Below are positions 7,891-34,142 of a DNA stretch of 34,142 nucleotides, one piece after another. The DNA comes from Candidatus Cryptobacteroides equifaecalis (lineage in GTDB: Bacteria; Bacteroidota; Bacteroidia; Bacteroidales; UBA932). The stretch is taken from NCBI GenBank assembly GCA_018064625.1, contig JAGHUW010000058.1, positions 1 through 34,142 on the forward strand, in the 5' to 3' direction. A program made the translations under genes and the position numbers. Under the pieces are notes generated by a model, which worked only from the letters and a program-made list of their open reading frames with translations, searched no databases and had not been told where the DNA came from. How positions within the stretch are numbered: the first letter of the stretch is position 1; each line of letters starts with the position of its first letter.

Positions 7891-7893
7891 AGT

Positions 7894-8200
7894 TAAGGTG
7901 GGGCCGTAAGCCGGTTTCTGTTTTTAAATCTGTCATTTATCTTCGCAACCTACCCCCTGACATCGGACGGGCCGTCCTCATCTGTCAGTATATTTGGTTT
8001 TGCAGGTCCCGGTGCCGTACCTGCCCTGCATCGCTGCAGGACATCGTGAGCTCTTGCCTCGCGTTTTCACCCTTGGCCTTTCGGCCGGTTGTTTTCTGTT
8101 ACGGTTTTCGTAAAGTTACCTCCACCTGCGCTTTCCGCAGCGGGATGCCCTTTCCTGTCCGGACTTTCCTCTCATATGAGCGACAGATCGTCCCACCTGT
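7894..8200 (-). ncRNA. rnpB: RNase P RNA, bacterial class A
   Basis: Minus strand carries GAGGAAAGTCCGGACA, GGGTGAAAACGCGAGGCAAGAGCUCACG and 3' ACAGAAACCGGCTTACGGCCCC. P1 pairing AGGTGGG/CCCACCT closes the ends. Confidence 0.95.
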
Positions 8201-8245: not shown

Positions 8246-8995
8246 ATGAAAAAGTTGATCTCGATAGCATTGTTGCTGAGCCTTGCATTCGTATCATGCG
8301 ATGCTGGAATCAGACAATATAAGGTAAAGGTGGTCCGTGAATACAGCCACGATACAGGGGCATATACCCAGGGTCTGTTCTTTCATGACGGAAAGATGTA
8401 TGAAAGTACCGGTCAGTACGGCAGTAGCTCCTTCAGGCAGGTTGATTACGCTACGGGCAATGTCTTGAAAAAGATAAAATTCGGGAAAAAGTATTTCGGC
8501 GAGGGTTCCGTCATGCTGGATGGCAAGCTTTTCATCCTTACCTGGCTCAACAAGGTCATATTTGTGTATGATGCTGAAACCCTGGAGTACAGACAGAGTT
8601 ATTCCTACCAGAGAGAGGGCTGGGGAGCGACCACGGATGGAAAGTACCTTTATTTGTCCGATGGGTCCTCCAAAATATATGTTATGGACAGCAATCTTCG
8701 TCAGATACGAACGATCAACGTTTCCGGCAACGGAAAATCCTTGCGTTACCTGAATGAACTCGAGTGGATAGACGGGAAGATATGGGCTAACATATATACG
8801 ACTGACCTTATCGCAATAATCAATCCGGAGAACGGTAATGTTGAAGGTATGATAGATTGCAGCGGTCTGCTTCCTGATAAACTCAGAACGGCCGATACCG
8901 ATGTTCTCAACGGTATAGCATATAATCCTGACACGAAGCAGATATTCATTACCGGCAAGAATTGGCCGCGTCTCTATGAAATAAGCCTGAAATAA
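8246..8995 (+). CDS. Glutaminyl-peptide cyclotransferase (glutamine cyclotransferase), lipoprotein
   Basis: Lipobox-like signal (LLLSLAFVSC). 'YTQGLFF..GKMYESTGQYG', 'LTWLNKVIFVYD', 'LNELEWIDGKIWANIY', 'LNGIAYNPDTKQIFITGKNWPRLYEI'. Confidence 0.9.
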   Translation: MKKLISIALLLSLAFVSCDAGIRQYKVKVVREYSHDTGAYTQGLFFHDGKMYESTGQYGSSSFRQVDYATGNVLKKIKFGKKYFGEGSVMLDGKLFILTWLNKVIFVYDAETLEYRQSYSYQREGWGATTDGKYLYLSDGSSKIYVMDSNLRQIRTINVSGNGKSLRYLNELEWIDGKIWANIYTTDLIAIINPENGNVEGMIDCSGLLPDKLRTADTDVLNGIAYNPDTKQIFITGKNWPRLYEISLK

Positions 8996-9010: not shown

Positions 9011-9135
9011 AAAAAGAACAACTCGCTGTCCCAGCGAGTTGTTTTCGGTTAGTTAGTAGTGTATACCTCTTAGAAGGTTATTATTGTTGGTTAGAAGTCT
9101 CCGGTATTGCCCGGAGTAGAGTTGTTTCATTTCCG
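9011..9135 (-). ncRNA. Candidate small RNA (~124 nt) with own promoter and terminator
   Basis: Minus strand: TTTG(9169-9166)-N18-TATCTTTG(9147-9140) promoter, internal stem CTCCGG-GCAATA-CCGGAG, terminal hairpin AACAACTCGCTG-GGA-CAGCGAGTTGTT followed by CTTTTT. No supporting ORF. Confidence 0.6.
9017..9043. terminator. Intrinsic terminator hairpin
   Basis: 12-bp arms AACAACTCGCTG/CAGCGAGTTGTT with a 3-nt loop. The U-tract is stronger on the minus strand (CTTTTTATA) than on the plus strand (TTCGG). Confidence 0.85.
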
Positions 9136-9139
9136 AGAA

Positions 9140-9169
9140 CAAAGATACGTCATTTTTTTTAATTGCAAA
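9140..9169 (-). promoter_or_regulatory. Bacteroidetes-type promoter (TTTG-N18-TATCTTTG) driving the candidate sRNA
   Basis: Both -33 and -7 elements present on the minus strand. Confidence 0.65.
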
Positions 9170-9214
9170 ACTTTTTATGAAAAAAATGCAAAAAAATTAA
9201 TACAATTATTAAAA

Positions 9215-9892
9215 TTATTTATTAAGTAACTCTGGTCTCAGAAGTTTTGTCCTTTCCATGGCCTGTGCATCCTGCCATTCCCTTATTTTCTTCGGGTCTC
9301 CGCAGAGCAGCACATCGGGAACTCTCCAGCCGTTGAATTCAACCGGCCTCGTGTATACAGGTGGGGAGAGAAGATTGTCCTGGAATGAATCACTCAATGC
9401 TGATGTTTCGTCGGTCAGGGCGCCTGGGATCAATCTTATTATGGAATCTGCAAGCAGGGCTGCGGGAATCTCTCCTCCGCTTACCACGTAGTTGCCAACG
9501 GAAATCTCCCTTGTGATGAGATGCTCCCTGATTCTATGGTCTATCCCTTTGTAATGTCCGCAGAGTATTATGATGTTTTCCAACATAGACAGCTGGTTGG
9601 AAATGCCCTGATCAAGGATCTCACCGTCGGGTGACATATATATCACTTCGTCGTAATCCCTTTCGGCTTTGAGCTTTTCAATCATTCTGAATACGGGCTC
9701 AACCATCATGACCATCCCGGCATCTCCTCCATATGAATAATCGTCGACGTTCTTTCTGGAACCTATGCCGAATTCGCGAAGGTTGTGAATGTGTATTTCA
9801 ACCAGTCCTTTTGCTACCGCCCGGCCCACGATGGAGTGGGAAAGAGGGCTTTCCAGCAGTTCTGGTACAACAGTTAATATGTCAATTCTCAT
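9215..9892 (-). CDS. trmD: tRNA (guanine-N1-)-methyltransferase TrmD
   Basis: [59 protein letters not shown] motifs. Confidence 0.96.
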
Positions 9893-33872: not shown

Positions 33873-34142
33873 TGAATCCAGCATACTTTGAATATAGTTG
33901 TGAGCAGAGCATAGACATAATACAATGAATTAAGATAAAGCTATAATAAAGGTATAGATATATAACTATTTGACATATAGTTTAATGAGATATTTAAATT
34001 GGTGATATAAATAATTCGACAGACCACCGTTACATTATTTAGTCGTACTACATATAATAATAGCTTTAGTTAGAGTATTTTAACTAACTGAAATACAAAG
34101 ATATAGACATATAATATATTTCTGATAAATATTTCTTATGTT

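Follow-up and report, generated by a model that had tools for sequence, protein, structure and literature searches.

To our knowledge, targets are known for only a few small RNAs (sRNAs) of the Bacteroidota, and the best-described of these, GibS and FopS, function largely in the use of sugars and polysaccharides. Translation initiation in this phylum proceeds largely without Shine–Dalgarno signals. In Bacteroides thetaiotaomicron, pairing of FopS and GibS around start regions has been shown experimentally, and the FopS family, which comprises 12–15 copies per genome, carries a 5' seed, acts on polysaccharide targets of the susC type and is bound by the RRM protein RbpB (PMC11697453, PMC7366714). 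In enteric bacteria, the GcvB sRNA affects both the uptake and the biosynthesis of amino acids, and its pairing site can lie immediately 5' of a Shine–Dalgarno motif (PMC11878033, PMC3879156).

The sRNA gene analysed here lies next to trmD in Candidatus Cryptobacteroides equifaecalis, within a stretch of 34,142 nt that was analysed as a whole (the window). The encoded RNA resembles FopS and GibS in its single-stranded seed, intrinsic terminator and predicted start-codon pairing (PMC11697453, PMC7366714), and it shares with FopS the canonical Bacteroides promoter type. Unlike FopS, the trmD-side sRNA is present in a single copy, its seed adjoins the terminator and its targets are predicted to be amino-acid genes. 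The RNA is unlikely to have a partner of the RbpB type, since an RRM_1 protein was found in none of 13 genus genomes by a search whose control was positive in Bacteroides. With respect to its inferred role, the RNA is similar to GcvB, in which a single sRNA serves several amino-acid genes by pairing 5' of their start codons, although the seed described here is rich in CUAAC and the predicted targets function largely in biosynthesis. The Rfam models of FopS and GibS and the GcvB covariance model did not match the sRNA. Based on these and the following observations, we consider it probable (roughly 0.78) that the locus encodes a trans-acting base-pairing sRNA for amino-acid metabolism, transcribed from its own housekeeping-type promoter.

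The earlier note on this DNA had left open identity with a catalogued Bacteroidales RNA, which the database searches do not support. When the sRNA was compared with all Rfam families, only chance-level matches were obtained at E<=10, and a catalogued Rfam RNA was rejected on these grounds. BTnc060 (RF04184), which is also a Bacteroides sRNA, gave only a weak chance-level alignment (17 bits versus a gathering score of 228.9, E = 2). Bacteroidales-1 (RF01693) and Bacteroides 6S RNA are likewise non-coding RNAs of Bacteroidales but differ in architecture and gave no Rfam match; Bacteroidales-1 was not found in the window's genome, while the control search was positive in Bacteroides. Nothing relevant was found in the literature on the sequence or on sRNAs of Cryptobacteroides. 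The sRNA next to trmD thus appears to be previously uncatalogued. The sole family found in an Rfam scan of the whole window was RNase P; this RNA, of bacterial class A, occupies positions 7891–8199 of the minus strand, on the far side of the glutaminyl cyclotransferase gene.

Organization and conservation of the sRNA gene

The locus comprises the following features (window coordinates):

9215–9892, minus strand: trmD (PF01746), conserved neighbour upstream of the sRNA and in the same orientation
9140–9170, minus strand: promoter of the Bacteroidota primary sigma type, with TTTTG at 9170–9166, an 18-nt spacer and TATCTTTG at 9147–9140
9011–9134, minus strand: the sRNA, approximately 124–125 nt, with a 5' end inferred near 9134–9132
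9119–9126, minus strand: 5' segment AACAACUC, conserved, in contrast to its pairing with the terminator arm
9099–9116, minus strand: 5' hairpin CUCCGG...CCGGAG, variable and missing from some relatives
9080–9097, minus strand: first conserved single strand CUUCUAACCAACAAUAAU, containing CUAACC
9066–9077, minus strand: small central hairpin CCUUCUAAGAGG, in place of which divergent members have other hairpins
9046–9062, minus strand: invariant single strand, directly before the terminator (ACACUACUAACUAACC at 9062–9047)
9059–9046, minus strand: putative seed CUACUAACUAACCG, inside the invariant single strand
9011–9043, minus strand: intrinsic terminator, with a 12-bp stem (9043–9032 / 9028–9017) followed by CUUUUU at 9016–9011
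8246–8995, plus strand: glutaminyl cyclotransferase gene (PF05096), the convergent neighbour of the sRNA

Promoters with TTTG / TAnnTTTG elements are of the Bacteroidota primary sigma type. Of 124 distinct loci, 122 carried the corresponding pattern (TTG-N16-21-TAnnTTTG) upstream of the core, compared with 3 of 124 on the opposite strand and 2 downstream. The terminator pairs covary, with 95 % of cells paired and 50 double-change cells versus 11 in shuffles. The conserved promoter together with the covarying terminator argues that the sRNA gene is more than a chance arrangement, and these sequence signals point to an independent transcription unit. The ATG-led frame of the window ends at differing places or is missing in relatives, and the RNA therefore contains no supporting ORF. 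The predicted fold was more stable than all 200 shuffles (z -6.1), mostly because of the terminator; the seed is unpaired in this fold, save for its last CCG. Such a conserved, accessible seed is a hallmark of trans-acting base-pairing sRNAs. The promoter, the approximately 124 nt without an ORF, the 12-bp hairpin with CTTTTT and a stem-poor centre with repeated motifs had all been described in the earlier note and are borne out here, the repeated motifs being of the form CUAAC. Among the elements for which the note raised conservation in relatives, promoter and terminator are conserved; the CTCCGG stem is variable, and the alternative pairing considered below is not conserved.

The distribution of the RNA appears to be restricted to one genus. 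BLASTn matched the region in 61 of 101 genus genomes, the weakest matches being partial in coverage, while a covariance model detected the sRNA in 33 of 40 high-quality genus genomes, in a single copy each. With the covariance model R1, 8 of 150 genomes of a family sample and 2 of 295 of an order sample were matched, all of them from the same genus, under stricter filters and with few candidates scored per genome, such that weak relatives may be missed. No such RNA was observed downstream of trmD in the loci of 25 other genera of the family, two of which ended before the stretch became readable, and viral contigs yielded four chance matches to the core that lacked the remainder of the RNA.

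The relatives' alignment displays a variable 5' part, the small central hairpin, the near-invariant sequence ACACUACUAACUAAYC and then the terminator with paired changes in its arms; one of the locus sets behind this core conservation was picked by the core pattern, whereas the BLASTn and covariance-model loci were not. In the divergent members G123 and G052 the core reads GACUAACC, and one locus (L037) is a natural short form consisting only of the promoter, approximately 23 nt, the core and the terminator. In most genomes the sRNA adjoins the trmD 3' end, and the two genes usually share one orientation. At L010, L018 and similar loci, which represent one group within the genus, the sRNA is instead inverted in the intergenic region, facing trmD and downstream of a TonB-receptor-like gene, the identity of which was read from the sequence alone. 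TPP riboswitches flank three sRNA loci (L035, L057 and L147), in a stretch that also holds a TonB-receptor-like gene.

Antisense words at start codons and predicted targets

The antisense of the core (GTTAGTTAGTAGT) was found outside the sRNA gene in a few genomes. Exact 13-mer antisense matches were located shortly before an ATG in five of six readable places, and the genes that follow, named by eye from their sequences, are nhaA-like (in the RNA's own genome), proB-like, proC-like, phenylacetate-CoA-ligase-like and MATE-like; the reversed-pattern control gave 3 matches in 41 genomes.

Word statistics were obtained from one relative (G097) that was read whole, with expected counts derived from an order-2 background trained on its 1021 intergenic leaders. 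Apart from promoter words, GTTAGTT, TTAGTTA and AGTTAGT showed the highest over-representation in the interval -40..-3 relative to start codons. GTTAGTT was seen 13 times versus 0.7 expected, being exceeded only by promoter words, and AACTAAC 6 times versus 1.5 expected. The antisense words favoured the antisense orientation; their reverse complements were also mildly enriched near starts, as coding DNA seldom contains words that include a stop codon. Sites matching GTTAGTT peaked at -20..-1 and were absent from the first 200 nt of coding sequence, and none of 3776 abundance-matched 7-mers exceeded this word in its start-proximal fraction (-30..-3). When every 7-mer of the RNA was scanned, the strongest clustered antisense signal within the transcript coincided with positions 82–95, the invariant core. 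Words from the extreme 3' end, past the terminator stem, scored as well and resemble general A-rich leaders. The first conserved strand, with CUAACC, showed no antisense enrichment at start codons in the same scan and was consequently rejected as a second seed. A duplex-energy count over all raw ORFs, a set with many spurious frames, was not above shuffled seeds. Only one chance-like site occurred in approximately 119 loci around trmD, which indicates that GTTAGTT is not a general feature of leaders. Complementary sites are present in several distant mRNAs, as is the case for trans-acting sRNAs.

The antisense words mark 24 called genes in G097, at least two of which are probably spurious. Family searches identified among them aspartate kinase/homoserine dehydrogenase (thrA), IlvD, HisG, DapA, P-II (glnK), glutamine synthetase III (glnA), O-acetylhomoserine sulfhydrylase, indolepyruvate oxidoreductase, an aminotransferase, a Na+-dependent transporter and a beta-eliminating-lyase-fold enzyme, read here as a threonine aldolase. 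Amino-acid or nitrogen genes accounted for 11 of the 24 antisense-word genes versus 3 of 33 genes marked by control words of the same make-up (Fisher p 0.002), the functional classes being assigned by hand and not blind. The predicted targets also include fusA, pckA, phosphofructokinase and phosphoglycerate mutase, which lie outside amino-acid metabolism.

The thrA leader carries the site in G097, G058, G065 and G081 according to a strict motif, and in G069 with one mismatch; the glnA leader carries it in 8 of 30 genus genomes. Several leaders possess a second half-site, AGTGTA, matching UACACU of the RNA, and in closer relatives the site persists while the neighbouring sequence diverges. The site is missing from the majority of thrA and glnA leaders in more distantly related members of the genus, in which many thrA copies are located inside operons. 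Outside the genus, the site was found in none of 28 thrA-type leaders. One genome (G058) has both the thrA and glnA sites while the RNA was not found in its incomplete assembly.

These observations suggest a mechanism in which the exposed core would pair with target mRNAs between about -30 and +1, masking the region of ribosome initiation, and would reduce the translation of a set of genes for amino-acid and nitrogen metabolism, with repression deduced from the position of the sites. The candidate regulon would comprise thrA, ilvD, dapA, hisG, glnA, glnK and the genes for O-acetylhomoserine sulfhydrylase, the threonine-aldolase-like enzyme, the aminotransferase, indolepyruvate oxidoreductase and the Na+-dependent transporter, as well as proB and proC in relatives. 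Genome-wide word statistics and ortholog conservation are the strongest support for this proposal, and the regulatory sign is its weakest part. The balance of evidence leans towards a broader role, in which the RNA may govern amino-acid and nitrogen metabolism throughout the genus as a master sRNA, in a Bacteroidota group that yielded no RRM_1 protein, directing one invariant seed to the start regions of first-step enzymes such as thrA, dapA, hisG, proB and glnA. The sRNA would provide a candidate regulon, together with its mapped seed, in a genus that is rich in species and known here mostly from rumen and gut metagenomes. Such a regulon allows the control of translation by pairing to be tested directly in a phylum that largely initiates without Shine–Dalgarno signals.

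Alternative explanations

An unlikely alternative is that GUUAGUU serves as a leader element recognized by a protein or by the ribosome, with the RNA being a decoy or unrelated. This would be consistent with an invariant core that exceeds the minimal length of a seed and with the conservation of the CUAACC strand, which has no antisense signal, so that part of the RNA may bind a protein. However, an RNA-level decoy would share the sense of the leaders, whereas the sRNA carries the complement, and several leaders contain AGTGTA as well as GTTAGTT, thereby matching the 20-nt core in two separate halves. The earlier suggestion of a regulatory or protein-titrating sRNA is therefore retained in its first part, as a stand-alone regulatory RNA; protein titration becomes the less favoured possibility, given that the conserved single strand is antisense to a word located close to start codons.

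The preferred reading, a base-pairing sRNA, also has to be distinguished from a 3' untranslated region that merely terminates the trmD transcript. In most genomes the RNA follows trmD directly and in the same orientation, which would fit such a role, but the nearly universal promoter and the group in which the RNA faces trmD make it very improbable.

We see next to no likelihood in a two-state RNA that controls its own termination through competition of the 5' AACAACUC with the terminator arm, as two mutually exclusive folds in the earlier note had implied. The underlying repeat is real, as AACAACTC at 9126–9119 exactly duplicates the 5' arm of the terminator in the window, and the 5' AACAACUC is itself conserved in many relatives. 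However, in 28 relatives the 5'–3' closing pairing was equal to that of shuffled columns, with respect to both paired positions (67.3 % versus 66.5 %) and covariation (0.059 versus 0.058), and at least seven contiguous complementary bases were available in only 7 of 130 RNAs; the alternative helix was rejected on this basis. Moreover, the next downstream gene in the window points the opposite way. The exact duplication thus appears to be a property of the window's own sequence.

A 6S-like RNA that traps RNA polymerase is scarcely credible, since the predicted fold is mostly single-stranded, with no long rod-like helix with a central bubble, and no 6S family was matched, although the apparent lack of Bacteroidales-1 in this genome would leave that role vacant.

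Elsewhere in the window, an inverted repeat, CAGTTAGTTAAAATACTCTAACTAAAG, occupies positions 34063–34092, at the start of an approximately 290-nt leader on the minus strand that precedes a gene encoding a small helix-turn-helix-like protein.
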